Source of the DNA: an uncultured Pluralibacter sp.
GTDB lineage: Bacteria > Pseudomonadota > Gammaproteobacteria > Enterobacterales > Enterobacteriaceae
Assembly: GCF_913775985.1 (NCBI RefSeq)
Contig: NZ_CAJYMB010000150.1
Location: 1 to 64,000 of the forward strand
DNA: 64,000 bases
Direction: 5' to 3'
The number at the start of each line of letters is the position of its first letter. Position 1 is the first letter of the stretch. Under the pieces are notes generated by a model that saw only the letters and a program-made list of their open reading frames with translations, was not told the DNA's origin and searched no databases. This document shows, in pieces, positions 5,600-30,495 of this stretch. A program made the position numbers and the translations under genes.

Positions 5600-7515
<1,916 letters not shown>

Positions 7516-7612
7516 TTATTCGATTAGGTGGGGTAATTAGCTAGGGTTTATTAGGTGGGTTCATTAATTTAGAGGAAAGGTCGGCTTTGTGCCAGAAGCG
7601 GACGTTGTCTTA

Positions 7613-7790
7613 CTGAACAAGCCGGTAATGCACTAATGGCATGGTGGGAAGGGAATGGTGCGGCACAGGTGATTGCACATGATCTTCTCTCGTCACCAGA
7701 ATGGCTGACCTGGACAGGGAGCGCCAGCTCAAATGGATAATTGCATGGTGGGGTCAGTCCAGTATGGTCAGTACGCTCGGTGGCAATAAG
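7613..7790 (+). pseudogene. Broken duplicate of an APH(6)-like kinase gene
   Basis: Two stretches match the intact kinase downstream. 7624-7680 encodes AGNALMAWWEGNGAAQVIAH, nearly identical to residues 48-67 of the intact protein (IGNALMAWWEGNGAAQVIAY). 7700-7750 in another frame encodes DRERQLKWIIAWWG, matching NRERLLMWIIAWCG near the intact C-terminus. The middle is deleted and the two pieces are out of frame. This looks like a tandem copy, or a related gene, collapsed by deletion. Confidence 0.65.
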
Positions 7791-7809
7791 AATTTTTATA
7801 GGAATCGCT

Positions 7810-8637
7810 ATGGATTCAGGTAAGTTAAGTTTTTGGTTAAATCGTTGGTTACTCATTCCGGATGGAGAGGAGTTTATAACTCGTACATCAACGCTGCTTC
7901 CGGTAAAAACAGCGACGCATGGTATTAAGGCTATGCTGAAAGTGACTGATGATGCGGATGAGAAAATCGGAAACGCACTAATGGCATGGTGGGAAGGTAA
8001 CGGCGCAGCACAGGTTATTGCGTATGAAAAAGAAGCCATTCTACTCGCTCGCGCTACAGGAATTGCATCACTGTCAACGATGTCCAAAAATGGTCAAGAC
8101 AATGAAGCCTGTCGCATTTTGTGTGCAACTGCGAACAGGCTTCACAGTAAGCCAGATAAACCCTTGCCAAAACTTACACCTCTCCATCGCTGGTTTTCTT
8201 CGCTAAAACCCGCAGCACTTGAGCATGGAGGGATTCTGGCTCGTTGCGCAGAGGTCTCTCAGCAACTGCTCTCCTCTCCGCAAGACGTCGTTGTATTACA
8301 TGGTGACTTGCATCACGATAACGTGCTTGATTTCGTATCATCTGATTGGCTGGCCATTGATCCCAAAGGGCTATTAGGCGAACGAGGATTCGACTTTGCT
8401 AATATTTTCACCAATCCGGATCTTGGTAATCCTGAGCAATATGTTGCAAGAGTACCTGGTATTTTTAAACAGCGACTTGAGATCGTTACTGAGATATCAG
8501 GAATAAATAGAGAGCGACTTCTGATGTGGATCATTGCCTGGTGCGGGCTCTCAGCGACATGGTCGCTCGAATGCAATGATTGTATTTCAGTACAGTTTGA
8601 AATTGCTGAGTTGGCTATTGCTGAACTAAGCGCATGA
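7810..8637 (+). CDS. APH(6)/hydroxyurea-type aminoglycoside phosphotransferase family kinase
   Basis: 275 residues from the ATG at 7810 (AGGA 7 bases upstream). A longer in-frame start at 7741 lies in the degraded duplicate and adds unrelated residues. The catalytic loop VVLHGDLHHDNVLDF and the metal-binding LAIDPKGLLGERGFD match the APH_6_hur family, which includes StrB streptomycin 6-phosphotransferase (278 residues, about the same length). The C-terminal region NRERLLMWIIAWCGLSATWS is also typical. Family members phosphorylate aminoglycosides with ATP in the cytosol, but chromosomal relatives often have unknown substrates, so resistance is not implied. It lies in a scarred accessory patch. 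Confidence 0.75.
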   Translation: MDSGKLSFWLNRWLLIPDGEEFITRTSTLLPVKTATHGIKAMLKVTDDADEKIGNALMAWWEGNGAAQVIAYEKEAILLARATGIASLSTMSKNGQDNEACRILCATANRLHSKPDKPLPKLTPLHRWFSSLKPAALEHGGILARCAEVSQQLLSSPQDVVVLHGDLHHDNVLDFVSSDWLAIDPKGLLGERGFDFANIFTNPDLGNPEQYVARVPGIFKQRLEIVTEISGINRERLLMWIIAWCGLSATWSLECNDCISVQFEIAELAIAELSA

Positions 8638-8811
8638 AATGCAGGCAACGCCGGGCATCTGAGTCATCATCCCACTGCTCATTTGCTGTTCAACTCCAAT
8701 CTGAATGTCCGTTCCTTGCTCAAAGCAGACTATCACGTTCCCATTTTATTTTTTGATAAAGCTGATGCTTGTATTGAGCCTTTATTAACAAAGGCCCAAT
8801 ACAGCGTCCTG

Positions 8812-9882
8812 CTACTGCAAATTCTTTTGCTTCAGGAAGTTACTCACCAAATCAGCAATCTGCACGTTATTCAGATCCGAGAACGGGAAGTGGGTATTCC
8901 CTTTAATTCCCACTTCAGGCAGATGCGTCACCGTCACATCACCGCCATGCTTGTTCACCACGTCACGCCACTCACGGGCCATCGCCAGTCTTACGCGCCA
9001 GCTGTCCTGCGCGGGCATGGCGACAGGTTTATCCGGGATGTTATCGCCGTAAATGATCAGAATCGGGATTTTGGTCAGTGCCATAAACTGTTCCATTGGC
9101 ACAGGCTTACCCTTCAGCGTGTCGAACGCGCTTGGCATAGGGGCTGGGAGTTCTTTTTTCGGGAAGACAAAGCTGCTGCCGGGCTCAAAGGCGACAATGG
9201 CTTTGACCTTGTTGTTTTTCATCGCCGTGTACCAGCCTGGTCCGCCGCCCTGAGAGTGGGTGAAGAGGATTGCCGGGCCGGATTTATCCACGACGGCGGA
9301 CATCGCATCGGAGATAACATTGATATCAAACGGCCCGGTATTCGGGGTCATCTGCCGGAAATACTGATTCAGTACTTCTTTGTCGTGAGGGAACTGAACG
9401 CCCTTAAAATACTTTGGCCACACGCCAACGCGGAACTGGTTGAACCACATCTGTTCATCCGGTTTAGGCGTAACCGTACCTTCTACCGTCGTGCGCCCGG
9501 CGCTGCCCCGGCGTGGCTGATCGACAAGATAGGTTGAGAACCCGCGACGCAGGAAGATGTTCTGGAACCCTTCGCGACCATCCGGGGTACTTTCCCAGGT
9601 TCGGGAGAACTGACCTGCGCCATGCAGCATCACAATAGGATATTTATGCGGATTTTCCGGAATCTGGTAGAACACAGAGGCATGATCGCCATGATAAGTT
9701 TGGCCAGCAGAGTCCAGCGGCTTTTTCGCGTCAAATGTTCCAGGCGCGGTAATGATGGTGCCACCAGCAGAAAAGCTTCCCTGCTCATGAATGACCAGTG
9801 GCTCGGCGTATACCGACTGGGCCATCAGGCCACCCGACATTACGCAGATGGCCAGCGTTTTTAAGATTGTCTTCAAGATCAC
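8812..9882 (-). CDS. Exported alpha/beta hydrolase (lipase/esterase-like)
   Basis: 356 residues with an N-terminal signal peptide (core LAICVMSGGLMAQSVYA, cleavage near residue 26). PIVMLHGAGQFSRTW is the oxyanion-hole region, LFTHSQGGGPGW carries the nucleophile Ser in a G/HxSxG-like elbow (HSQGG), YGDNIPD is a likely acid position and GIKGNTHFPF holds the probable catalytic His. Related periplasmic proteins are annotated as alpha/beta fold hydrolases or esterases; the substrate is unknown. It stands alone on the minus strand, flanked by about 170 bp on the left and a flavodoxin remnant on the right. Confidence 0.75.
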   Translation of the reverse strand: MILKTILKTLAICVMSGGLMAQSVYAEPLVIHEQGSFSAGGTIITAPGTFDAKKPLDSAGQTYHGDHASVFYQIPENPHKYPIVMLHGAGQFSRTWESTPDGREGFQNIFLRRGFSTYLVDQPRRGSAGRTTVEGTVTPKPDEQMWFNQFRVGVWPKYFKGVQFPHDKEVLNQYFRQMTPNTGPFDINVISDAMSAVVDKSGPAILFTHSQGGGPGWYTAMKNNKVKAIVAFEPGSSFVFPKKELPAPMPSAFDTLKGKPVPMEQFMALTKIPILIIYGDNIPDKPVAMPAQDSWRVRLAMAREWRDVVNKHGGDVTVTHLPEVGIKGNTHFPFSDLNNVQIADLVSNFLKQKNLQ

Positions 9883-9983
9883 ATCCTCTGTTATGTTTGC
9901 CGTTCAATCATATCTGAGTTGTCAGCGTTAATTATTTAGCACCTCTAATTGCCCTTATTTGACAGACTCATGAATGCGGGCGA

Positions 9984-10335
9984 TTAACTGCGTATTGTCT
10001 CTAACCAGTGGGTGACCGTTTCAGTAGTTCTTCGCTCCTGGTCGCATTTAAGGACCAGCGGTTTTCCCGACGCGCAGTGGGGGCAAGACGGGCAAGGATG
10101 TCGTCGCTATCTCCTTTACCGTAGCCAAGGGGATGAGTAATTTGCCCGCAAGGTCATGGCTGCTGAGAAATGTTTGCACGACCGGCGGCACGCTGGCCCC
10201 CCAGATTGGAAAGCCTAAATACAGGGTCTCGTAGCGTGAAATATCTGCGACGCTATTTTTTAATGCCGGTTTTACGCCCCGCTCACGCACATTTTTCACC
10301 TGTTCAACGGTCTGGAAATAAGAAGCGGAAGTCAA
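9984..10335 (-). pseudogene. Flavodoxin-family protein remnant
   Basis: The minus strand encodes EQVKNVRERGVKPAL, then YETLYLGFPIWGASVPPVVQTFLSSHDLAGK and LIPLAT, the second half of a flavodoxin_4-type domain with its FMN-contact region (LGFPIWG). The open frame drifts after LIPLATVKE, but another frame resumes with PLVLKCDQERRTTETVTHWLETI and stops at 9984-9986, so at least one frameshift is present. The N-terminal phosphate-binding loop is missing. The gene abuts the 3' end of the MobA-like gene at 10339, suggesting a deletion joined them. Confidence 0.65.
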
Positions 10336-10338
10336 ACT

Positions 10339-10893
10339 TTAAGCACGCGACGGGTCGGTTAACCTTTGCGCTACCTGTAAATCCGCCAGAGTATCGATAT
10401 CGTGGGTGATACCATAATCTGACAGCAAAATATCTTTAGCTTCTCCCCGAAGTCGTGCGCGTCTCACTATTTCTTTTGCTCCCGTATCGCCAGAAAGGGC
10501 GAGTAATTCAGCACGGTGCTCCTGCCTGAATCCAACCGGATGACCCGAATAATGCTGGTAGTGAGGCACCACTATCGAATTATCTTCAAGCTCTGCTGCG
10601 ACGCGCTGCAATGATGAGGGCTGAATTAAGGGAAGGTCGGCGGGCAGGATCAGCCATCCCGGGGCCTGAAGCGTGGCCCCGACGCCAAGCGCAATAGACT
10701 CGCCCATGCCGCACGTTCCGCCTTCAGGGCAGACCAGATGCCATCTCAGGTTCGCGGTTTCGACGGCTTCCAGCACATGTTCTAAAACCGGCTTGCCGTT
10801 GAGCAATGCGGCTAATTTATGGGTACTGCCTCCGGAGGTGAGAAAGCGCCCTCCGCGCCCGGCTGCGAGGATCAGAACGATGGAGGCAGGCAT
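10339..10893 (-). CDS. MobA/MocA-like molybdenum cofactor nucleotidyltransferase
   Basis: 184 residues from the ATG at 10893, preceded by a perfect AGGAGG; longer in-frame starts lie inside the xdhC-like gene and are rejected. MPASIVLILAAGRGGRF is the nucleotide-binding loop of the MobA/MocA NTP-transferase fold, and LILPADLPLI contains the metal-binding Asp. Such proteins transfer CMP or GMP to molybdopterin to make the dinucleotide cofactor of xanthine-oxidase-family enzymes. It overlaps the paoD-like gene by 22 bp at the end of the pao operon, so it probably finishes the cytosine-type cofactor for PaoC. E. coli pao lacks this extra gene as I recall, which makes the arrangement notable. Confidence 0.75.
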   Translation of the reverse strand: MPASIVLILAAGRGGRFLTSGGSTHKLAALLNGKPVLEHVLEAVETANLRWHLVCPEGGTCGMGESIALGVGATLQAPGWLILPADLPLIQPSSLQRVAAELEDNSIVVPHYQHYSGHPVGFRQEHRAELLALSGDTGAKEIVRRARLRGEAKDILLSDYGITHDIDTLADLQVAQRLTDPSRA

Positions 10894-11828
10894 GAAGCCT
10901 CCTCCTGATGGAGGCGTACAGAGGCGACTTCTGCCAGCACGGAGAGGGCCAGAGTATGCGCATCCCGGGCCTTGGGGAATATCCCGACAGGTGCCCGGAT
11001 TTGCGCTGTCTCTTCGCTGGACCACCCCAGCTCGTGGAGCTTTTGCAGGCGTAAAGCATGGGTTCGATAGCTGCCCAATGCGCCGAGATAAAAGGGTTTC
11101 GCCGCGCGAGCGGCCTGCAATACTGGCAGCTCCCGGTTAAGATCGTGGCACAGCAAAATTACCGCCGTATCAGCATCGATCGGCGCGTTGGCCGAGGCCG
11201 GAAAAAGGTCGAAGGTTTGACTGTCATAGCCAGTGGCTGCCGCAAGGCTGGCGGTTGCCTGCGCTTCATAAGAGCGTCCGTAAATTATCAGCCTTACGCA
11301 AGGTCTGAATCCCACCTCAAAGCCATTGATATTCCAGCCAGTCCTGGTTTGCGCGGGCAGGCATATAAGCGATTGTGCTTGCGGATCGTAACGCAATCCC
11401 GCCGGTTTTCTCTGTTCCAGGCGATTCAGCACGGCGAGCAGAGGCTGTGCCGTGCGCAGCTTATGAAGCGTCAGCGTGATCCCACCGCCGCAGGGCAGAA
11501 CGATGTCAAACCACGGCGAACCTTCGCCATAGCGAATTTCGCGATCGCGGCCTGAGCTCATCACCTCCAGTGCTTCAAAAGCGGTGGCGGCCTCCACGCA
11601 GCCGCCGGAGACAAAACCACAGTAGCGACCATCTTCGCGCACTACCATCTGCGACCCGACCGGGCGCGCCGCGCCGCCGCGTATCTCCACCAGCGTCACC
11701 AGCACCGCCGCTTTACCGGACATTAGCGCCTCTATGGCGAAGCGCAGAATGGCCCGGCGGTCATCGGTGAGAAACGCCTGCTCCGGCTTAGGCCTGCGCT
11801 CTTCTTCGTTAAAAAGCGAGTATGTCAT
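10872..11828 (-). CDS. paoD: PaoD/XdhC-family molybdenum cofactor insertion chaperone
   Basis: 318 residues. The N-terminal XdhC/CoxI domain includes VTLVEIRGGAARPVGSQMVV and GFVSGGCVEA; the C-terminal Rossmann-like domain includes YLGALGSYRTH and IRAPVGI. In E. coli, PaoD binds the molybdopterin cytosine dinucleotide cofactor, aids its sulfuration and inserts it into PaoC before Tat export. The gene follows paoC by 9 bp on the same strand. It is cytosolic and has no signal peptide. Assignment rests on motifs, length and operon position. Confidence 0.85.
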   Translation of the reverse strand: MTYSLFNEEERRPKPEQAFLTDDRRAILRFAIEALMSGKAAVLVTLVEIRGGAARPVGSQMVVREDGRYCGFVSGGCVEAATAFEALEVMSSGRDREIRYGEGSPWFDIVLPCGGGITLTLHKLRTAQPLLAVLNRLEQRKPAGLRYDPQAQSLICLPAQTRTGWNINGFEVGFRPCVRLIIYGRSYEAQATASLAAATGYDSQTFDLFPASANAPIDADTAVILLCHDLNRELPVLQAARAAKPFYLGALGSYRTHALRLQKLHELGWSSEETAQIRAPVGIFPKARDAHTLALSVLAEVASVRLHQEEASCLPPSF

Positions 11829-11837
11829 TGTTGCTCC

Positions 11838-14036
11838 TTAAACCACATCCGGCAGCTTATCGAGCAGCTTATCCAGCGTGATGGGGTAATCCCGTACCCG
11901 AACACCGGTGGCGTTGTACACCGCGTTAGCGATAGCCGCGCTCACGCCGCACAGGCCCAGCTCACCGACGCCTTTGGCCTTCATCGGGGAGGATATGGGG
12001 TCGGTATCATCCAGGAAAATGACGTCCTGTTGCGGAATATCCGCATGGACCGGCACCTCGTACCCCGCCATATCGTGATTAACGAAGTAGCCCAGACGCT
12101 CATCTACCGCCAGCTCCTCCATCAGCGCCGCGCCCATGCCCATGGTCATGGCGCCAATGACCTGGCTGCGTGCAGTTTTCGGATTCAGGATGCGCCCCGC
12201 TGCGCACACGGCGAGCATACGCCGGACCCGAACTTCTCCCGTAGCGCGATGCACGCCAACCTCCACAAAATGCCCGGCAAAGGTCGACTGCTGGTATTCC
12301 TTACTCAGTGTGCCGAACTCAATGCTCTCTTCCGCTGTCAGTCTGCCGGCTGCGCTGGCCTCACGTAGCGTGACGCTGCGGGTGCCGCTGGTAATCTTGC
12401 CGTCGGCAAACTGCGACTGCCCGGGATCAAATCCGACCGCCGAGGCAATCATCTCGCGAAGCTTCACGCAGGCGGCGTAAACGCCGGAGGTGGAGGTATT
12501 CGCGCCCCATTGTCCGCCAGAACCCGCAGAAACCGGAAAACGGGAGTCGCCCAGGTGAACCGCAACTTGCTCCAGCGGTACGCCAAGCATTTCCGCCGCG
12601 GTTTGGGCCAGAATGGTGTAGCTGCCGGTGCCAATGTCGGTCATGTCCGTTTCGACAGTGATCGTGCCGTTTGGCTCAAGGTGAACCCGCGCGCCCGATG
12701 TTTCGAGCAGATTATTGCGAAAGCCCGCCGCGACCCCGACCCCGACCAGCCACTCACCGTCGTGCACCTGTCCGGGCGTGGCGTTGCGCTGCTTCCAGCC
12801 AAATTTATCCGCTCCGGTGCGTAAGCACTCGATAAGCTGGCGGCGGGAGAAGGGGCGTTTGGGATCGGCGGGATCAACCTGCGTGTCATTCAGGATGCGA
12901 AACTCGACGGGATCGAGCCCCGCTTTTTCCGCCAGTTCATCCATCGCGATTTCGAGCGCCATCAGCCCGGGGGCTTCGCCGGGCGCACGCATGGCATTCC
13001 CTTCCGGCAAATCGAGGGTGGCGAGCCGCAGGCCGGTATGACGGTTTGCCCCTGCGTAGAGTAATTCGCTTTGCTGCACCGCCGTTTCCGGCGTGCCGCC
13101 GGGGAGGTTCCCGGACCAGCTTTCATGTGAGATAGCGATGATTTTCCCGCTCCGATCGGCACCGATACGCAGGTGCTGAAGGGTGGCAGGGCGGTGCGTA
13201 GTGTTATTGGGAATAATGGGGCGGGGAAGCATAACTTTAACCGGGCGTTTCACCGCACGTGCGGCGAGGGCTGCCAGCAGCGCATCGCTTCTCAGGAACA
13301 GCTTGCCGCCAAATCCTCCGCCGATGTACGGGGAGATAATACGCACATTCTCCACGGGCACTTTCAGTGTTTTCGCCAGATCGGTGCGGCACCAGTCAAT
13401 CATCTGATTTGAGGTCCACACCGTGACCCGATCGCCCTCCCAGATGGCCATCGAGGCATGCGGCTCCATCGCCATATGACTCTGGTCCGGGGTCGAGTAG
13501 GTAGCATCAATCTTCACCGCGGCGGAGGAAAACGCGCTGTCGAAATCACCGACGTTTTTGTCGGGCGTGTCTTCCGGTGGCTGACTGACGGCTTGTTTCT
13601 CGTCCGCCAGGGAGTAAGCGCCTTTCTTGCGCTGATAGTGCGCCTGCACCAGCGAGGCTGCCGCTCGCGCCTGTTCGAAAGTTTCTGCCACCACCAGCGC
13701 AATGGCCTGATGGTAGTGCTCAATCGTGGGGCCGCCTAACAGTCTGGCGGTATTTTTATCGCCTTTGCCGAGTTCCCCGGCGTTACCGGCGGTGATGACC
13801 GCCAGCACTCCCGGCGCTTTTTGTGCGGCGTCCGTATCAAGGGCGATGAGGCGTCCTTTTGCAATCGCGGAACCGACGATATAGCCATAGGCGGCATTGG
13901 GCGCTTCTTCATGCCATTCGTAGGCGTAGCGTGCCGCTCCGGTGGTTTTCAGCGGTCCATCGATACGGTCATGGGGACGACCGACAACCTTCAGCTGATC
14001 GATCGGGTTTTCACCTGCTGGTTTATCAAATTTCAT
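11838..14036 (-). CDS. paoC: Periplasmic aldehyde oxidoreductase, molybdenum subunit PaoC
   Basis: 732 residues, the same length as E. coli PaoC and similar throughout as I recall it. It has the xanthine oxidase large-subunit fold with [11 protein letters not shown] and [10 protein letters not shown] cofactor-binding loops, [13 protein letters not shown], and the C-terminal GVGELGLCG whose Glu is the catalytic base of the family. PaoABC oxidises aromatic and other aldehydes to acids in the periplasm, detoxifying them. It has no signal of its own and is exported with PaoA. The start overlaps the paoB stop by 4 bp, indicating translational coupling. Confidence 0.95.
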
Positions 14037-22202: not shown

Positions 22203-22862
22203 TTGATTGGTAATAACTCTAAGGATTTCACTTGTCTTGGCTGTGAGTTAGCGTGTGACTATGCAAACAGTGAGCTTTTTTATGATCTCAAATGCAATGA
22301 TAAGAAATTAGTTGTCTGGCCTGATGATAATTACTATTTCAAGCTGGCGATTAACGAATTGGTATTCAAACGCTCTTTTTGTTACCATGAAAATGGAATT
22401 GTTGTTGTCGATCTATCAATATATCACCTGGCTTTCTTTCTTAATGAAAACTGGATTGATTTCCTGAAAAAAACAAATTTACATGTCACGCTCATTGCCG
22501 GCCATGGCATGTTGCCATTGGCTAATTTTTGGGCTAAAAAAGCGGCTGCAAATTGGGCTGTGTTAAATGGTTGTGATTTAATAAACGCGGATTTTAAATC
22601 AAAAAAGAAACCTATTAATACGTTCGAGATTAACTTGAATAGCTACCCATCCCTTAGCGATAACGAAATGTACACGCTAAGGCTGATGAAAAAGGGGTGT
22701 TCTAATCATGATATTGCCACGCATTTACAGTGTGAAGTCCGTCATGTCTACCGCCTACAGGATGCAATAAGAAAAAAGATGCGCTCACCTAATTTCTTTC
22801 GTGGAGTCATGTTCAAACAGGCTATCTCAACAACCTTTAATCATACTACTGCACCGGTTTAG
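22203..22862 (+). CDS. EcpR/MatA-like LuxR-type regulator, copy 2
   Basis: 219 residues, starting at TTG (22203) with GGGAG 6 bases upstream. The N-terminus has CLGCELACDY (Cys11, Cys14, Cys18); then VVWPDDNYYFKLAINELV, similar to the EcpR sensor region of E. coli; then a C-terminal LuxR helix-turn-helix (LSDNEMYTLRLMKKGCSNHD and HLQCEVRHVYRLQDAIRKKM, about residues 155-200). The regulator at 29091 shares the Cys motif at identical positions and the WPDNNYYLRLGI block, so the two are paralogues. It is convergent with ecpE, with a 17-bp overlap of the 3' ends. It probably tunes pilus expression; its ligand or partner is unknown. Confidence 0.75.
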   Translation: MIGNNSKDFTCLGCELACDYANSELFYDLKCNDKKLVVWPDDNYYFKLAINELVFKRSFCYHENGIVVVDLSIYHLAFFLNENWIDFLKKTNLHVTLIAGHGMLPLANFWAKKAAANWAVLNGCDLINADFKSKKKPINTFEINLNSYPSLSDNEMYTLRLMKKGCSNHDIATHLQCEVRHVYRLQDAIRKKMRSPNFFRGVMFKQAISTTFNHTTAPV

Positions 22863-23544
22863 CAAAACAGCCTGAACCCAATTGATGATAGCGCCCGAGG
22901 GCGACAATATATTTTTTATTGTTCCCTTGGGCCTCGGGACCTTTCCAGCTTTCACCAGGCAGCATGTAGAACTGTTTTGAGCTTTCATCATCGCCGTTAC
23001 AGCCCTTTTGTAAAATTACCCGGAAAAATGTGTTTCCCGTATTTCTAATTACGCCACTCTTTTCATCAATGGTATATTTTAGCTCTGTTTTTCGAGGCCG
23101 AACCACAAGGATAGTACTCATGGCAACAACGGGAATGATATCCATGTTTTTTTGGGCCTGACGAAACGGAAAGATCGTGATCGGAGATTCCTTGAAAATC
23201 ACACGATAATATCTCTCAATATTATCATAAGGGCCACGATAATAAAGCTTAAAGTACTCTTTACCATCGGGCTGGATCGTGAATTTAAGCGGTGACCAAA
23301 TGAGATCTTTAGCACTGGCCAGTACCGCAGATTCATTCCCTGCACCCGGGCGAGAAATTTTATAGGCGGAAATGGTATACAAATTACTGCGGCTGGTATC
23401 ATTTATTATAGGCCGGGCAATAAAATCTTTGCTGGCATCCATATCGTAGACGATTGCATTAAAATACACGCCGCTGGCCGGGCTGGTAAACAGCCCGAAA
23501 AAGAGACTGAGGGTGGTGAAAAGCGCCGCTGTTGTCATTTTCAT
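22846..23544 (-). CDS. ecpE: ECP pilus periplasmic chaperone EcpE-like
   Basis: 232 residues with a signal peptide (core ALFTTLSLFFGLFTSPASG). YFKLYYRGPYDNIERYYRV and STILVVRPRKTELKYTIDE align with EcpB in the same operon, showing that both are alternate-family (alpha) pilus chaperones. In E. coli, EcpE is the second chaperone, thought to assist EcpD. It is the last gene of ecpABCDE, 8 bp after ecpD, and its 3' end overlaps the convergent regulator. Confidence 0.85.
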   Translation of the reverse strand: MKMTTAALFTTLSLFFGLFTSPASGVYFNAIVYDMDASKDFIARPIINDTSRSNLYTISAYKISRPGAGNESAVLASAKDLIWSPLKFTIQPDGKEYFKLYYRGPYDNIERYYRVIFKESPITIFPFRQAQKNMDIIPVVAMSTILVVRPRKTELKYTIDEKSGVIRNTGNTFFRVILQKGCNGDDESSKQFYMLPGESWKGPEAQGNNKKYIVALGRYHQLGSGCFAKPVQ

Positions 23545-23552
23545 GAATGTGC

Positions 23553-25160
23553 CTATTTATCAACCCCAATCCATTTTGCCGTCACCTCGACCGTACCGCT
23601 GGCGCTGACTGTCCCCATCCAGTCTTCATCATTGACGGACAGCTTTGAACGCAGGTCGTTCATCGGGAACAGCAGCTTTAACGTGGTGGTAAAGAAAAAA
23701 CCGTCGTTTACGCTGGCGTTCCACGCCGTTTGAACCCAGGTTGCATCCGTCATATCTACAGGCGCTTCGCTACAGCTATTGCGCACTTTCACTTCACTAC
23801 CCGTTGATGAAATCCATGACAGATAGGCCGGGATAGGGACCTGAAGGCTCTCGTCGGGGGATTTAAATAAGCAATAGGGGACTCCAGCCAGCGTCACGCT
23901 ATCCCCTTTAACCTGGGCCGTGATGCTGTCGGCCTGGCGGGCAGCAGACGTTGTGACTTTATAGTCAAATTCGATAGGGGGGCTATCTTCGCCGATTTTT
24001 CCAGAGGCTTTAGGATTTGTGCTGCCATCCGTGGAAACGATACTAATTCCATACTCGCGCGGAAGGATATTTAATTTTGTCGAGGGTGTAAACTGATAAA
24101 AACCAGATTCTGGTGACACGCTATTCTTAAAGGCAAAGGTAAAGATTCCATCTTTATTGGTTAGATTGGTCCCTGCATTCAAGGCACTTTTGAAGAAATC
24201 ATTGGACATAAATATATTAACGTACTCACCTGAGGGTGTAAAAATACTGCTATAAGCTTTAGATGTACCAAAATTTGTCCAGGTAACCCCATCACCGCTA
24301 TATTTTATGTCTGCCGCACCAGGAGTGAATCCAAGGATGGCTTTATCAATGATCATTTGCATAGTCAAAGAGCTAGATAGTACTTTCGTCTCTTTTAGGT
24401 TGTAGGCTATCATTCGGCATGAAAGTCCACTTTTTTTATCTACTATTGCAATTTTACAGGAATCGGAACCACTGCTGATACTCGGTGTTCCATCGCTGGC
24501 AACCCAAATTTCTGCCATGGCTCCCGTACTTTTTAATTCTAAGTGAGAGATTTTATTCAACGTTAAGTTATAGATACGCCAAGATGCCCCACTGGGCAGG
24601 TCTTTACAGCGCTGGCCTGTTTTATAATCATAATCTGTAGCCGTGGTACACAGATTTAATTGATACGTTTCACTATTACCTACTGGCAAGTTTCGAAAAT
24701 AGACGTAAGCAGTAGGACTCAGAGAGCCAAAACCATAAGAACCGTTATATACGCTATTCCCTGACATCGTATGATAGAAACCTTCCCGATCAAGATGTTC
24801 AGCCGCGATATAGCCGCTTGCCGGGCAGGTTGAACCACTGTTCATACAGCGTATTCCAGCAAAAGGCTGGGATATTGAGGAGTTTGATATCCACATATCA
24901 TAATAACGATTAACGCCCGTCCAGCCAACGAAACCCATGTAGCCGAGACTGACTTGATTGCTCTTATAATGCATCCATACATTGGCACCGCTAAACCGCG
25001 GATCTAATTTACTTGAGGTAATAAAATATTCATTGTCTACGGCATTATCGATGAACATATAATCATTTTCACCGCTACCGGACACGGTAGATGTCACTGC
25101 TATTGCGGGGCCTGCGGCAATCAGACCCACAACACCCAAACATAAATTCTTAATAGACAT
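23553..25160 (-). CDS. ecpD: ECP pilus tip adhesin EcpD-like
   Basis: 535 residues from the ATG at 25160 (AGGAG upstream); longer in-frame starts run into ecpC coding sequence. A signal peptide ends near residue 21 (core LGVVGLIAAGPAIA). The rest is beta-rich with paired cysteines and no recognised catalytic motif, consistent with EcpD, the polymerising tip subunit of the E. coli common pilus (547 residues). It overlaps ecpC by 11 bp. Sequence similarity is weaker than for EcpA-C, as expected for an adhesin. Confidence 0.8.
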   Translation of the reverse strand: MSIKNLCLGVVGLIAAGPAIAVTSTVSGSGENDYMFIDNAVDNEYFITSSKLDPRFSGANVWMHYKSNQVSLGYMGFVGWTGVNRYYDMWISNSSISQPFAGIRCMNSGSTCPASGYIAAEHLDREGFYHTMSGNSVYNGSYGFGSLSPTAYVYFRNLPVGNSETYQLNLCTTATDYDYKTGQRCKDLPSGASWRIYNLTLNKISHLELKSTGAMAEIWVASDGTPSISSGSDSCKIAIVDKKSGLSCRMIAYNLKETKVLSSSLTMQMIIDKAILGFTPGAADIKYSGDGVTWTNFGTSKAYSSIFTPSGEYVNIFMSNDFFKSALNAGTNLTNKDGIFTFAFKNSVSPESGFYQFTPSTKLNILPREYGISIVSTDGSTNPKASGKIGEDSPPIEFDYKVTTSAARQADSITAQVKGDSVTLAGVPYCLFKSPDESLQVPIPAYLSWISSTGSEVKVRNSCSEAPVDMTDATWVQTAWNASVNDGFFFTTTLKLLFPMNDLRSKLSVNDEDWMGTVSASGTVEVTAKWIGVDK

Positions 25161-27687
25161 TCTCAAGATCTCCTGTGCGGGATGCGGTCTGCTGCTGCAT
25201 CTGACATGGAATTTCACCGACCCATGCCGCGCCTCTGACATCGGTAAGGTTAAGGTCCGCTTCGCAAATGCCGCCATTCTTGTCCAGCAGGGTAATAACG
25301 GGATAGCGCTTATCGACATCCATCGCGAACTCGCCTTTATCGTCAGTGCGGGTTTTGCCGATATGGTTGTGGATGTCCGTATTGGCGTAATAGCTGCCGT
25401 CAGGGCGCTTGACGCGACCAAACACCGTCACCAGCTGCTTAACTTCCGGATTGATTACGCTGAGGTTGCCGGGATAAAGCACCACTTTGCTGCGCCGTCC
25501 GCTAACGATATCCACGCTGTCCTCAGAGTTCTTATCATTCATCAGCTCGACGTTGTATTCGGCGTAAGGGGGAAGGGTGATGAAATTACTTTTACCCGTC
25601 AGCGGGTAGCTCTGGCCGTTAATCTGCGCCATCATCTTGCCCTTCTCGCTGAAGTTGGTATTCACCACCAGCCCGGCGTTCTGCGTGCCGTTGCTGGCAT
25701 AGAAATCTTTTTGCGTCCAGGCAATGCTGCCCTGGGAGCTGAGGCTGATATTGGAACTGTTGTCAGAGGAGCGGCTGGCGGAAACGGTGCCGGTATTGTA
25801 TTTGGTGTCGTAGCTGGCGAAGCCATTTGCCGCAAAATCGCCGGAACTGTAGCCGCTGTCATCGCTATTTTTTTGCTTAAGGCGTTTTGACACCGACGCA
25901 CCGGCGCTGGTAATGACGCTGTCGTCGAACTGCTTCTGAACCTTGAGGTTTGCCAGCATATCGCCGTTCTGACTTGAGACACCGGCGCTGACCGTGGTAC
26001 CGAAAGGAATGGAAATATCGATGTTGACGTATTTGTCGCGTAAGTTGGTGCGATCGTCATACTGATAATTCTGGATCCCGGTACGCAGCGCCACAGATCC
26101 GTAGCGGTTTGCCAGCAGGGACTGACTGTAGTCCACGTTGGTGTAGGTGCTGCCGTTATATTTATTATTGGTGCGGCTCACGGACAGGCTGCCGAGAAAC
26201 GAGGCCGCCTTGCGCAAGTTGGCGGTAGCGCCAATCGATACATAATCATTTTTCTGCATGGAAAGCCGATTACCCACGTGCCCGTACTGGCGCGATCCCC
26301 ACAGGCTGCCGTAACCCTCTGGCAGGCTGTAATTAACGGTAGAAATACTTTGCCAGCTGCTGTCAGTGGCGAGCATTGCCTGCTGATTAAAGCTGAACGC
26401 GTCGCTGAGAATCACGCTGACTTCGGATTCGTTAACGCCATTATTGTCAAAACCGTACAGCGTCGATTTCAGGTTCACGCCGGAGAGCCACGGCTGGCTG
26501 GTCGCACCTGAGACGCCGGCAATCCAGGTATTCTTCTTCCCGTAGCGGGTATTTTTGTGATCGCGGTAATCCGTTCTGTCATATTCCAGATTGCCGCCGA
26601 ACATCTGCCAGGTGAAGTTGCCGGTCAGGCTGGATTTGCGGGCAAAGGTTTTGTTGATATTCGCCGTGCGGCTGCTGACCTCGCGGCCGTTAATGATCAC
26701 TTTCACATCCACATCGTAAATACCAAACGGCAGGCGGGAGGTATCAAGTTCGTAGCTGCCCATTGAGAAATTCTGAATACTCAGCAGCTTGCCGTTGCGG
26801 TAAACGTGTACTTCACCTGCGGCAGGAAGAAACACCGTTACCGGGGTCAGCGACAGGGTATTGTCTTCAATCTGGGTGCTGCTTTTGTTTCCGTAACTGG
26901 CACCATAAATGCGGCTGGAATTTAGTGCGTTCATGCTGGCAATAGACTGCAGGTTCCACGTATCCACCATGCCCATCGCCAGCCGGTGTCCGGCAAAGTC
27001 GCGTTCGTACATCGCGCGGTAGACTTTACTTTCGCGATCGGATGTCCCGATGCCGTACACCGAGCCGTTGAGATTGACGTGGTGCTCGCGCAGCGACAGC
27101 GTGTTGTCCAGGGTCAGGTAGCTGCTGCTGTTGTCGCTGCCGCCGTATTGACTGTAGTAGCTGCCGAAGGTGTAGTTAAGCACGCTTGATAAATGCTCTG
27201 CGGTTGATTCGCCGAGCATATTCGAGCGCGGCAGAATAGCGGCATTCATAGCCTCGCGGTTTACTGTCAGCTCAAGATAAAAGGAGCGCGTCTCCAGAGA
27301 CAGGGAGGCGTCCTTATTGAGGATAATACGCTTGCCGTCGCCGATACTTTTATTCTGCAGACCAGCGATCATGGCTTTAATCTTTGGCGACAGCTCGGTG
27401 CGATCGGGAAGGTCGCTCAGCGTGACCTGCTGAATTGCAAATTCATTATCTTTGATCGTCAGTATCGCCTCGGCGATTTTCTGGTTGCTTCGTTGAGTAT
27501 TGGTGTCGCCCGCGTAACGAATAAAAATAGGCACGGTCATCCCCTGATACAAAGCATTAGCGAAGACCGCAGGAATAACATAATTATTCACTTTTACTGG
27601 TGCTGTTGGGTTTGCAAGTAAACTCTGATTTATAGAGAGCAATAGTCCAGCAAACAGCGTCCCTCTGACATAGCCCAGATTATCCAT
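25150..27687 (-). CDS. ecpC: ECP pilus outer-membrane usher EcpC-like
   Basis: 845 residues (E. coli EcpC about 841). A signal peptide is followed by an N-terminal domain, a long beta-barrel section (strands such as GASYGNKSSTQIEDNTLSL) and C-terminal domains with VTVFGRVKRPDGSYYANTDIH. PVTVFLPAAGEVHVYRNGKL and SYELDTSRLPFGIYDVDV match the plug and neighbouring segments of alternate (CS1-type) ushers. It would export and polymerise EcpA and EcpD through the outer membrane. It lies 8 bp after ecpB. Confidence 0.9.
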   Translation of the reverse strand: MDNLGYVRGTLFAGLLLSINQSLLANPTAPVKVNNYVIPAVFANALYQGMTVPIFIRYAGDTNTQRSNQKIAEAILTIKDNEFAIQQVTLSDLPDRTELSPKIKAMIAGLQNKSIGDGKRIILNKDASLSLETRSFYLELTVNREAMNAAILPRSNMLGESTAEHLSSVLNYTFGSYYSQYGGSDNSSSYLTLDNTLSLREHHVNLNGSVYGIGTSDRESKVYRAMYERDFAGHRLAMGMVDTWNLQSIASMNALNSSRIYGASYGNKSSTQIEDNTLSLTPVTVFLPAAGEVHVYRNGKLLSIQNFSMGSYELDTSRLPFGIYDVDVKVIINGREVSSRTANINKTFARKSSLTGNFTWQMFGGNLEYDRTDYRDHKNTRYGKKNTWIAGVSGATSQPWLSGVNLKSTLYGFDNNGVNESEVSVILSDAFSFNQQAMLATDSSWQSISTVNYSLPEGYGSLWGSRQYGHVGNRLSMQKNDYVSIGATANLRKAASFLGSLSVSRTNNKYNGSTYTNVDYSQSLLANRYGSVALRTGIQNYQYDDRTNLRDKYVNIDISIPFGTTVSAGVSSQNGDMLANLKVQKQFDDSVITSAGASVSKRLKQKNSDDSGYSSGDFAANGFASYDTKYNTGTVSASRSSDNSSNISLSSQGSIAWTQKDFYASNGTQNAGLVVNTNFSEKGKMMAQINGQSYPLTGKSNFITLPPYAEYNVELMNDKNSEDSVDIVSGRRSKVVLYPGNLSVINPEVKQLVTVFGRVKRPDGSYYANTDIHNHIGKTRTDDKGEFAMDVDKRYPVITLLDKNGGICEADLNLTDVRGAAWVGEIPCQMQQQTASRTGDLENVY

Positions 27688-27695
27688 AATAGCTC

Positions 27696-28373
27696 TCAGT
27701 TTACATTAATATACTGTTCACCGTGCCAGATGCCGACTCTGGTTTTTTTATTTGTGAGGTCTGTATATACTATTCTTGCGCTTACGCCCGGCATCACATA
27801 ATAGCGCTCGCGGCAGCCTTCACCTGAATCCTTTGATTTATCTTTGCACGGGCCGTATGAAATAATGCGGAATGAGGCATTTCCCGTATTGGTAACAACA
27901 CCGTTCTTCCAGCTAAAATCGAATTTTTCCTGGCGCGGTGCGACCACCAGAATGGTACTGATAATCGCCGAGGTGGTTGCTTCACCCTGTTTTTTACTTT
28001 TATTGGCTTCGAACTCGGTCACCGGCTCATCGGTCCACGATACGCGGTAATAACGCTCTTTGTTATCCTCCGGGCCTTTATAAAAAAAGCGGAAGTTATC
28101 TTTGGCATTGCCGGGCAAAATCATGCTGGCGGGCGTGGATAACAGCTCTGATTTTGACTCCATCGGAATAATAATGCCGCCTTCCATAGGGGATGACAGG
28201 CGCTGAACGGTGACGCTAACGTAGCGCGCGGTGTCAGTGACGTTGGCAATTTCTTTTGCCAGGCTACTTTTATCGGGCTCCATCATGGAAGTGACTTCAC
28301 CTACGTTAATCGCCTGGGCCGACAGAGAAACAGCGCAAAGAGAAAGAGTGAACAGCAGTGAGTTGCACTTCAT
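27696..28373 (-). CDS. ecpB: ECP pilus chaperone EcpB-like
   Basis: 225 residues with signal peptide MKCNSLLFTLSLCAVSLSAQA-type N-terminus ending at residue 21. DNFRFFYKGPEDNKERYYRV and STILVVAPRQEKFDFSW are shared with EcpE. It is an immunoglobulin-like periplasmic chaperone that would hold EcpA pilin subunits before delivery to the usher. It lies 63 bp downstream of ecpA and 8 bp upstream of ecpC. Confidence 0.87.
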   Translation of the reverse strand: MKCNSLLFTLSLCAVSLSAQAINVGEVTSMMEPDKSSLAKEIANVTDTARYVSVTVQRLSSPMEGGIIIPMESKSELLSTPASMILPGNAKDNFRFFYKGPEDNKERYYRVSWTDEPVTEFEANKSKKQGEATTSAIISTILVVAPRQEKFDFSWKNGVVTNTGNASFRIISYGPCKDKSKDSGEGCRERYYVMPGVSARIVYTDLTNKKTRVGIWHGEQYINVN

Positions 28374-28436
28374 AGCCTTTCCTTGAAGAGGGCCGAAGCC
28401 CTCTTATTTATTACGAGGGAGGAGTTTTTCGCAGAA

Positions 28437-29021
28437 TTAGGCGCTGGTGGTCCACACGGCGGTGAACTGTACGCGAACGTCGCCGCTCCAGTAGCCGTCG
28501 GTCAGATCTTCAAACTGAGCAGCGGTGCTGCCGTCTGAAGTTGCGGAATCGATGGAGAAATCGAAGTTACCCTGGGTGCTGGTACGGTCAGCACCTGCGT
28601 AAGCGGTGGCTACAGCCAGCGCATCAAGACCCGCAGATACGTTGCCCTGGGTATCGATCATAGTGACCGGCGTTGCTTCGCTCAGCGCCTGTCCGTTCCA
28701 CTTCACGCCCACCGCAAGGGTAGAAGCATCGGTGGTGCGGCTCAGAGTGTTGTTAACAATCTGGGAGGTCAGTTTGAAATCTGTCGCGCCAGACTGGCCT
28801 GCGATAGTAATATCAAACGCGCCTTTCTGGGTATTAAACGCTTTGATACCTTCCGCATACTGGAAATTCAGCGATTTCAGCGGGGTAACAACCAGCATGC
28901 TTTTGGTGTCTTTCGTTGCGCTGGCATCCCAGGTTGCAGTAGCGGTTGCTGTTACATCAGCAATAGCGTTAGCAGACAGGCATGCAGCGGCGACGATACC
29001 GGCGAGTACGATTTTTTTCAT
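28437..29021 (-). CDS. ecpA: ECP (E. coli common pilus) major pilin EcpA-like
   Basis: 194 residues, close to E. coli EcpA (195). The signal peptide ends at ANAIA; then DVTATATATWDASATKDTKS, SMLVVTPLKSLNFQYAEGIK and SGDVRVQFTAVWTT follow the EcpA/MatB pattern from end to end. It is the shaft subunit of a thin pilus that mediates epithelial attachment and biofilm in E. coli and Klebsiella. The 63-bp gap to ecpB could allow differential expression. The regulator at 29091 ends about 70 bp upstream of its ATG. Confidence 0.92.
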   Translation of the reverse strand: MKKIVLAGIVAAACLSANAIADVTATATATWDASATKDTKSMLVVTPLKSLNFQYAEGIKAFNTQKGAFDITIAGQSGATDFKLTSQIVNNTLSRTTDASTLAVGVKWNGQALSEATPVTMIDTQGNVSAGLDALAVATAYAGADRTSTQGNFDFSIDSATSDGSTAAQFEDLTDGYWSGDVRVQFTAVWTTSA

Positions 29022-29090
29022 TCTTTATATTCCTGAATTAATAAATATCCATTGATTTATCGCGGTATGGCAATAAATTTCTTACTGATA

Positions 29091-29708
29091 CTAACTGGAG
29101 ATAACTGTATTTAATTTTCCCCTCCCTCCCATCTTTTTTTGCAAAATACCCTTTGCATAATAGATTCTTTTTTCATTAATCTGCAGCGTTTCGGACATCT
29201 CTTTGATGTTCTTTTCAGCCAGCATGAGATCGAGTACAGCTATCTCAAGATCGTTAAATTTGGTGTTGGAAGCGCGACGATCGTGATGGCCGGTAAAGCA
29301 ATAATTGATTATTTTATCAATTTTAGCGTAGTCATCATTGCTGGTGATGACTGTCGAAATTAAATGTGATTTCGCTTTCCAGTAGAATGCTAAAGGCTCC
29401 ATCACTTTATCAGTGACAAGGATTAGCTTTAACCCTGATTTTGATAAATTCTGCAACCATTGGTTATTAGTAAAGTAACGAATGTTATGACACGAGAAAT
29501 CAACAAAAATAAATCCCGTATAGGAAAAGTTATAGTGTGAATTCAAGATTAAAAATTGAATTCCTAACCTTAAATAATAATTATTATCAGGCCATAAGGT
29601 GTACTGGTTCTCAACGCACTTTACTTTTTTTATCGTTGGCGGCGCAAGAAGATCGCAGTGTAAGTGGCAACTCATACACTTTATTTTTTTATCGGTGTGC
29701 GATGGCAT
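29091..29708 (-). CDS. ecpR: EcpR/MatA-like LuxR-type regulator, copy 1
   Basis: 205 residues if started at the ATG at 29708. That start puts CMSCHLHCD at Cys11, Cys14 and Cys18, exactly as in copy 2 at 22203; an upstream in-frame ATG at 29780 has no better ribosome binding site, so the start is not certain. TLWPDNNYYLRLGIQFLI corresponds to the EcpR N-terminal region and FNDLEIAVLDLMLAEKNIKEM with INEKRIYYAKGILQKKM is the LuxR helix-turn-helix. Its place directly upstream of ecpA on the same strand is that of ecpR in E. coli, which activates the operon against H-NS. Confidence 0.78.
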   Translation of the reverse strand: MPSHTDKKIKCMSCHLHCDLLAPPTIKKVKCVENQYTLWPDNNYYLRLGIQFLILNSHYNFSYTGFIFVDFSCHNIRYFTNNQWLQNLSKSGLKLILVTDKVMEPLAFYWKAKSHLISTVITSNDDYAKIDKIINYCFTGHHDRRASNTKFNDLEIAVLDLMLAEKNIKEMSETLQINEKRIYYAKGILQKKMGGRGKLNTVISS

Positions 29709-29780
29709 ATCCTTTTTATTTCCCTGTTTCCTGTATTTCACCGCATGTGATGGAGGGGATAATAAGTTTAGAAACATCAT

Positions 29781-30495
29781 GTTTCAATGCGTAAAGCCTG
29801 TCATGTCAATCGTAAAGACTATGGAAAAGTCCTATAAATTCACAGTGAAAGAAATGCTGTAACGCGTTCTATTTGTCGTGGTTATGGATTGTGCGTTTTT
29901 TTATCGAAAGAATAATGCTAAGAATTTTCCCTGTGCGTTTAGGATTTTTCCTTAGAAATTAGCGATGTTGGTTAAAAAAAAACAGCACTAAATGCAAACC
30001 GGAAGGTTAATGGTGGTGTAGTTATGTTTAATTTATGTTGATTTTGTTTTGTTTTGGTTTCTTTTTTGTTTTAGTTTTTGGTGTGGCGATCTCGAAACAC
30101 CCTGGCAGATCAGTTTTCCATTTTCAGTACGATGGCCGTTTTTTGATTCAGCCAGGCTTTTTCATGTTGTCCGCGCTGGCGTGTTTGACGCCTGTGTTTC
30201 TACTATTTTGTAATTACATGCTCAGCAACAAAGATGAGGCTTCATTTTATGTGAATAAGGCCGGTGGCTCAAATCCCTGCGGCAACTGTTTAGAAAAGTT
30301 CAAGTTTTACGAAAATGTGACGCTTACTGGCGTTATGTCAGGAACGCGTATATCGAGCGCCCGTCTGTAACAGCGCGCAAGCGTCATATGCGCAGGCAGG
30401 CCCGCAGCAGAGTGGCAAGAGAAGTGGATATTTTGCTGATGAACGTTGGTGATTGAGCTCGTTGGAAAAGAACCCCTCATTCCCGGCACTATCCC
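29781..30495. other. AT-rich region between the pilus locus and the sugar-acid locus
   Basis: About 700 bp, very AT-rich in its left half. It holds the regulator promoter. The only candidate gene is the small membrane-protein frame at 30035-30370, listed separately with low confidence. The right part (30360-30490) contains GC-rich palindromic fragments but no clear terminator. Confidence 0.35.
30035..30370 (+). CDS. Small hypothetical membrane protein (uncertain)
   Basis: A 111-codon frame with two hydrophobic segments (LILFCFGFFFVLVFGVAI near residues 2-19 and FFMLSALACLTPVFLLFC near 42-60) separated by a short polar loop, and a CGNC motif near residue 82. It matches no family I recognise and has no clear ribosome binding site, and the surrounding DNA is T-rich, which favours chance hydrophobic frames. 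The start is uncertain. Confidence 0.3.
   Translation: MLILFCFGFFFVLVFGVAISKHPGRSVFHFQYDGRFLIQPGFFMLSALACLTPVFLLFCNYMLSNKDEASFYVNKAGGSNPCGNCLEKFKFYENVTLTGVMSGTRISSARL

Follow-up and report, generated by a model that had tools for sequence, protein, structure and literature searches.

The operon for an ECP (Mat) pilus in an uncultured Pluralibacter sp. was bracketed by two regulatory genes whose products carry the same N-terminal arrangement of four Cys residues. In the 64,000-nucleotide stretch analyzed (G000:C150:1-64000, hereafter the window), regA (29091-29708, minus strand) headed the pilus operon, followed on that strand by ecpA, ecpB, ecpC, ecpD, and ecpE, while regE (22203-22862, plus strand) lay at the other end, ran in the opposite direction, and converged on ecpE. 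Judged from their sequences, RegA and RegE are YqeH-type regulators with a Cys module, a receiver-like domain, and a predicted LuxR-type helix-turn-helix (HTH), a label chosen because Escherichia coli YqeH has the four-Cys motif and five E. coli-type EcpR proteins do not. We tentatively propose that both bind a metal center, most likely [4Fe-4S], and together regulate the pilus from a control region upstream of regA; taken as a whole, this proposal is slightly more apt to be wrong than right.

RegA and RegE each carried C11, C14, C18, and C31 followed by W39 (C-x2-C-x3-C-x12-C-x7-W). A preliminary description of the locus had recorded both genes with their coordinates and strands, the TTG start of regE, a 17-bp 3' overlap of regE with ecpE (22846-22862), the first three Cys of either protein, and their WPDDNYY and WPDNNYY blocks, all of which were present. 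The Cys set as first described was incomplete, lacking the fourth Cys (C31) that, together with W39, is common to relatives, and the non-ATG start, though real, was not peculiar to the window. Among 10 loci with a bracketed operon, regE began with ATG in six, TTG in three (window, L167, and L171), and GTG in one (L119), the motif beginning at residue 10 to 12 of the product.

Relatives were collected by similarity and not by motif. A first scan of genome contigs found no relative; a family-wide search with regE gave a match in 60 of 392 genomes, and a search for the MatB pilin gave a match in 63 genomes of the same sample. Iterative profiles run over the 2,219 open reading frames (ORFs) of at least 110 amino acids in the window and stretches L062-L161 recovered 80 EcpR-like proteins. 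The full motif occurred in 41 of these 80 and in none of the 2,139 other ORFs, hence it is more than chance. CxxCxxxC, found in nine of the 2,139, did not occur by itself in any of the remaining 39 EcpR-like proteins, among which were many NarL-like proteins and five E. coli-type EcpR proteins (L062, L063, L065, L068, and L069), this label coming from gene position and the tree instead of from a model. Such all-or-none conservation fits a metal or redox site, and a shared metal site would predict the all-or-none loss seen here. Orthologs kept the Cys set, the exception being RegA of L119, whose N-terminal stretch was of similar length and had no Cys before its Trp, as if the set had been lost together. 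The original observation was thus confirmed and enlarged. Its interpretation was partly supported: the suggestion that the Cys might bind a metal or sense redox state is plausible and, from this conservation, appears better founded than before.

All-or-none conservation also bears on two other roles for the Cys. CxxC pairs can be redox active, but a metal-free thiol/disulfide redox switch is quite improbable, since some proteins should then retain partial sets if two Cys sufficed, whereas none of the 80 proteins kept CxxCxxxC without the fourth Cys and L119 RegA had no Cys. Weightier, though still unlikely, is a structural Zn(2+) that folds the N-terminal module, perhaps as a dimer or partner interface, with no sensing at all: judged by sequence, zinc would suit four conserved Cys just as well, and the motif was lost while the gene stayed in L119, L157, and L158, but three close Cys and a remote one with no second CxxC knuckle are unlike the common zinc ribbons. 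We take the CX2CX3C-Xn-C arrangement to resemble the N-terminal [4Fe-4S] site of molybdopterin oxidoreductases; the [4Fe-4S] regulators FNR and WhiB and the molybdopterin oxidoreductases likewise combine three close Cys with a remote fourth, with folds and spacing that differ. A Pfam scan of six proteins placed no above-cut-off family on the Cys segment, and matches under the cut-off to RNHCP (E 0.14, L163), DUF5498 (E 0.24, L119), and CrmD_SECRET (E 0.0012, L162) were taken as chance. When 394 genomes of the order were searched, none of the matches listed from outside the family covered the Cys segment; the best listed match outside Enterobacteriaceae (E 3.6e-9) began at model position 59.

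Beyond the Cys module, AlphaFold2 models built from 20-row alignments of the window and L162-L171 proteins (predicted local distance difference test [pLDDT] score 73 for RegE and 82 for RegA) gave a receiver-like alpha/beta domain and then an HTH, matching structures of RcsB, NarL, and VpsT. The best Foldseek matches of RegA were RcsB, DesR, and VpsT (E 1.1e-4 down) and, with a template modeling score of about 0.3, the predicted similarity is one of parts and not of the whole arrangement. For RegE, structure comparison matched HTH domains with Z 7-8, and RcsB aligned along 141 residues (Z 7.9, rmsd 7.3). Asp70, at a strand end, was invariant in all 20 rows and stood where receivers carry the phosphoacceptor; EcpR-type proteins show FINL or FVNL at the block matching this region. 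PF00196 GerE (cut-off 23.5) scored 19.9 and 12.5 bits in the window proteins and exceeded the cut-off in close orthologs of each, L107 (regE type, 32.6 bits) and L162 (regA type, 24.6 bits). Loss of DNA binding from one copy, which would have spoken against two regulators, is therefore not clearly indicated, the predicted HTH being above cut-off in orthologs of each protein and below it in the window's own.

Neither protein is EcpR proper. Against NCBIfam model NF047921 (cut-off 300), RegE scored 29.6 bits and RegA 25.9 bits, and TviA and BglJ models matched weakly, so that "EcpR-like," the term used in the preliminary description, holds loosely and YqeH-type is the closer name. Like regA, the gene for E. 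coli EcpR/MatA (NF047921) is the first upstream of ecpA, a position on the same strand that regE, at the opposite end, does not share. Like the window regulators, for which such an HTH is predicted, EcpR/MatA is a LuxR-type HTH protein of ~200 amino acids with a W-block after an N-terminal stretch, and there as here the operon is likely self-activated from upstream. Unlike the window, E. coli-type loci (the five named above) lacked both the four-Cys motif and a further regulator beside ecpE. E. coli YqeH (yqeHIJ, ETT2 region; L174, the one YqeH examined) shared the motif spacing and a related regulator body and, unlike regA and regE, adjoined no pilus operon in the stretch examined. In the regulator tree, YqeH-like proteins, with E. 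coli YqeH represented by its close relative L125, formed a third group apart from those of RegA and RegE. RegA and RegE did not behave as orthologs of YqeH itself: the groups were separate, and no yqeI or yqeJ was seen by eye among the listed ORFs around the operon. The L125 gene matched DNA in 4,002 of the 5,426 complete E. coli genomes searched; in 3,701 the match spanned 80% or more of the query. The five rows listed were annotated yqeH. A paper on YqeH reports that type 1 fimbriae genes were unaffected, and its main text has neither "cystein" nor "iron" (PMC9014576). The open-licence literature searched yielded neither a bracketed ecp operon nor a YqeH iron-sulfur site.

To place the bracket among relatives, we compared 76 stretches with MatB matches, comprising the window and 75 fetched stretches (L062-L121 and L142-L156), a few of them cut by contig ends; ecpA was found by profile in 74, and ecpA, ecpC, and ecpD together in 66. 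Seven had the bracket (window, L104, L106, L107, L108, L109, and L119), both regulators being four-Cys proteins in six and the upstream copy motif-less in L119, while L144 had the downstream regulator only. The L119 locus (6381-13245) is a bracketed operon minus ecpE, with RegA Cys-free before its Trp. A search of named genomes gave 10 loci, seven of them bracketed ecp operons. Four were on contigs already sampled (Enterobacteriaceae bacterium 89, Entomohabitans teleogrylli, Pseudocitrobacter vendiensis, and an uncultured Pseudocitrobacter), and three were additional, from Klebsiella grimontii, K. oxytoca, and K. michiganensis of the K. oxytoca complex; the stretches without an ecp operon came from Citrobacter sedlakii, LSJC7, and Enterobacillus tribolii. 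Stop codons of regE and ecpE, compared at 10 loci including L144 (L119, having lost ecpE, stood outside the comparison), lay 0 to 42 bp apart in nine relatives; the window had the 17-bp overlap. In a 68-row usher tree (quick method, Shimodaira-Hasegawa-like approximate likelihood ratio test only), the 10 bracketed operons fell within a 13-row set with support of 100. The other three rows were L144, where just the downstream gene is present, L142, with neither gene, and L105, which has no four-Cys gene.

Upstream and downstream regulators separated by position and not by genome. A tree of 54 rows placed the upstream copies, with their relatives, in an A group (18 rows, 97/97) and 11 downstream-type rows in an E group (94/85). 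The downstream genes of L106, L109, and L119 joined the latter in the best tree, where the resulting group of 14 rows was weakly supported (53/92). Window RegA was 53% identical to its L107 counterpart and RegE 38% to its own, compared with 25% between RegA and RegE. On this sequence evidence the two are old, distinct paralogs. A recent local duplication without functional meaning, to which the shared motif and shared operon might point, is highly implausible and was rejected from the tree and from these identities, each protein being nearer its positional counterpart in L107.

The two groups also traveled together. An A-group gene was present in the same stretch for 11 of the 14 E-group genes, and an E-group gene for 11 of the 18 A-group genes; none of 14 YqeH-like rows, some from stretches that were short or cut by contig ends, had a second four-Cys gene, although three had a further NarL-like gene that was left out of the tree. 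In L157 and L158, the pair brackets PapC-type fimbrial operons, and only the downstream gene has the motif. Pairing at ecp and at other adhesin loci argues that the two proteins work together. Such lasting pairing fits a heterodimer or two co-activators equally well, and the switch suggested in the preliminary description from the placement of the genes is conjectural. A divergent arrangement was observed in Citrobacter sedlakii (L161:7650-9418; same contig as L168), where A and E genes are adjacent beside an 870-amino-acid autotransporter gene.

We next consider the DNA upstream of regA. Alignment of the 480-bp regions preceding regA at the 10 bracketed loci revealed a conserved GTGCTGT-T-run-AACC element, represented in the window by GTGCTGTTTTTTTTTAACCAA (29968-29988, minus strand). 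As a pattern, the element had 15 matches in 1,870,904 bases, corresponding to 11 distinct loci; 14 matches lay upstream of a bracketed regA and one, in L144, upstream of ecpA. The cis element GTGCTGTYWTTTTT occurred in exactly one copy, at this operon, in each of eight whole genomes, and the reversed pattern occurred twice in G000, the source genome of the window, and in none of the other seven. A looser form of the element added L127, L085, L150, and L155, of which only L127 was upstream of a four-Cys regulator. The window also has a GGAA-TTCC-like box, TAAGGAAAAATCCTA (29940-29954, minus strand). Counted from where the GTGCTGT element starts, a box of the form [GA]GAA-N2-3-TC[CT]T lay 37-38 bp further on at nine of the 10 bracketed loci (not L119). 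Its chance expectation was ~0.0005 per locus, but because the loci are related, these occurrences represent conservation and not independent matches. L144, which lacks regA, had the GTGCTGT element and no strict box match, and no GTGCTG was found within 900 bp upstream of ecpA in L105 and L142, which lack a four-Cys regulator. A second dyad-like box, CAGGGAAAATTCTTA (29919-29933, minus strand), was picked out by eye.

Nearer the operon, a promoter-like TTGAAA-17 bp-TATTAT was read by eye before regA-ecpABCDE (29759-29787, minus strand; TATTAT at 29759-29764 and TTGAAA at 29782-29787), and relatives showed such a block, also by eye, at the same place in the alignment. Although the regA frame stays open back to an ATG at 29780, this promoter would place the transcription start after that codon, which favors 29708 as the start of regA. 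Both regulator genes were A+T-rich (36-38% G+C, compared with 55% in the window), a composition usual for H-NS targets.

From these parts we assemble the following mechanism. The four Cys of each N-terminal module would bind a metal center, most likely [4Fe-4S], ahead of a middle receiver-like domain of the RcsB/NarL type and a predicted C-terminal LuxR-type HTH. RegA would probably regulate itself and ecpABCDE from the far-upstream region 29919-29988, like E. coli EcpR, and RegE, whose gene would have a separate promoter at the opposite end, would provide a second input on the same control region. Our guess is that RegE acts at the GTGCTGT element and RegA at the GGAA-TTCC box, as RegA-RegE heterodimers or with RcsB, against H-NS. 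Pilus expression would thereby follow iron, oxygen, or redox state through loss or repair of the metal center. The metal and its kind, the matching of protein to site, the sign of regulation, and the part of RcsB are what we infer; the promoter was read by eye.

Known systems offer precedents for several of these steps. MatA-RcsB activates the mat operon independently of phosphorylation (PMC5651002), EcpR combines positive autoregulation with relief of H-NS control (PMC5962669), and K. pneumoniae ecpA is derepressed without H-NS (PMC4746245). An HTH protein that pairs with RcsB, as the auxiliary regulators RcsA, BglJ, GadE, TviA, MatA, and DctR do (PMC5651002), is the likely mode here. None of the six auxiliary regulators is known to contain a four-Cys module.

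Several results weigh against this mechanism. The four-Cys module is not needed everywhere, since the A-group partners in L119, L157, L158, and L159 are motif-less, as is the E-group gene of L159. The RegE Cys segment was poorly modeled (pLDDT below 50 at residues 1-11 and 13-33), and the first 30 residues of RegA had block means of 51, 64, and 55. A profile of the Cys segment returned nothing from the PDB at E≤10 and, with Pfam matches in the six scanned proteins only under cut-off, its homology to a known metal domain was rejected. On the DNA side, the assignment of sites to RegE and RegA comes from one locus, L144, and a looser pattern found box-like matches upstream of ecpA in L105 (one, at -485) and L142 (two, at -555 and -306), which weakens the link between box and RegA; the box may not be RegA's. 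Matches to the RcsAB consensus exceeded shuffles at P<0.05 in none of the 10 sequences preceding regE and in four of the 10 preceding regA, of which three came from sister Klebsiella; these matches being weak, an RcsAB box was rejected as the conserved element.

Comparison of the bracketed loci revealed no element shared by the sequences preceding regE, and a common operator preceding both regulators was rejected. This absence, including that of the GTGCTGT element, and the poor conservation of the regE upstream region are what might be expected if RegE were a passenger at the 3' end and RegA alone regulated ecp. We regard a passenger RegE as improbable: it was kept at that end by L144, three Klebsiella species, and seven of the genomes sampled, was nearly always tail to tail with ecpE (lost in L119), occurred in L144 with the element and without RegA, and belongs to a group paired with A genes at 11 of 14 loci, other adhesins included.

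The genes between the regulators identify the operon as ECP (Mat), with the order A-B-C-D-E, two chaperones, an alpha-type usher, and an adhesin, all on the minus strand. The major pilin gene ecpA (28437-29021) encodes a MatB pilin (PF16449, 178.7 bits, cut-off 27; NF047910, 277.6 bits, cut-off 200). It is followed by genes for an EcpB-like chaperone (27696-28373; PF18649, 100.9 bits), an EcpC-like usher (25150-27687; assigned from a domain match and the usher tree), an EcpD-like tip adhesin (23553-25160, the start at 25160 being deduced), and an EcpE-like chaperone (22846-23544; PF18649, 18.9 bits, under its cut-off of 26.1). EcpD scored 428.8 bits against the NF047911 equivalog cut-off of 900, and by sequence the operon is a divergent ECP member.

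Related regulators were also observed elsewhere. The source genome encodes a second A-group four-Cys regulator that adjoins a PapC-type fimbrial operon (L127:7939-8550, contig C31); GTGCTGATTTTAACCAAG, 310 bp upstream of it, resembles the ecp element. An EcpR-like gene without the four Cys (L140:4801-5415, contig C131) lies near a gene on the other strand for a 1,221-amino-acid trimeric autotransporter adhesin (YadA_stalk, ESPR). A YqeI/YqeJ-like pair was often near such regulators (L157, L158, L160, L166, L170, and L174); PF00486 (Trans_reg_C) was above cut-off in five of the six YqeI-like proteins and just under in L160, with no match in L117, and the YqeJ-like partners were named by eye except in E. 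coli. On conjugative plasmids, a four-Cys YqeH-like gene stood directly 3' of blaCTX-M-40 (L172:7001-7618) and blaCTX-M-9 (L173:7001-7603). A tblastn search with L107 RegE matched 107 plasmid records, two of which were examined; the plasmid gene probably came along with CTX-M from the chromosome that was its source.

Iron or redox state may modulate how much pilus the organism makes. A broader reading, which we hold to be decidedly doubtful, is that the YqeH family, including the YqeH of most E. coli, would comprise unrecognized iron-sulfur-sensing co-regulators of adhesins, and that the ecp bracket would act as a two-input gate needing both RegA at GGAA-TTCC and RegE at GTGCTGT in the right cluster state. 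The four-Cys site offers a testable biochemical handle on the family of E. coli YqeH, a protein for which the available part of its description names no signal, and the single-copy cis element, together with natural losses in L144, L119, L105, and L142, eases dissection. If an iron-sulfur cluster is there, pilus and adhesin expression in many enterics would be tied directly to iron, oxygen, and nitrosative stress.

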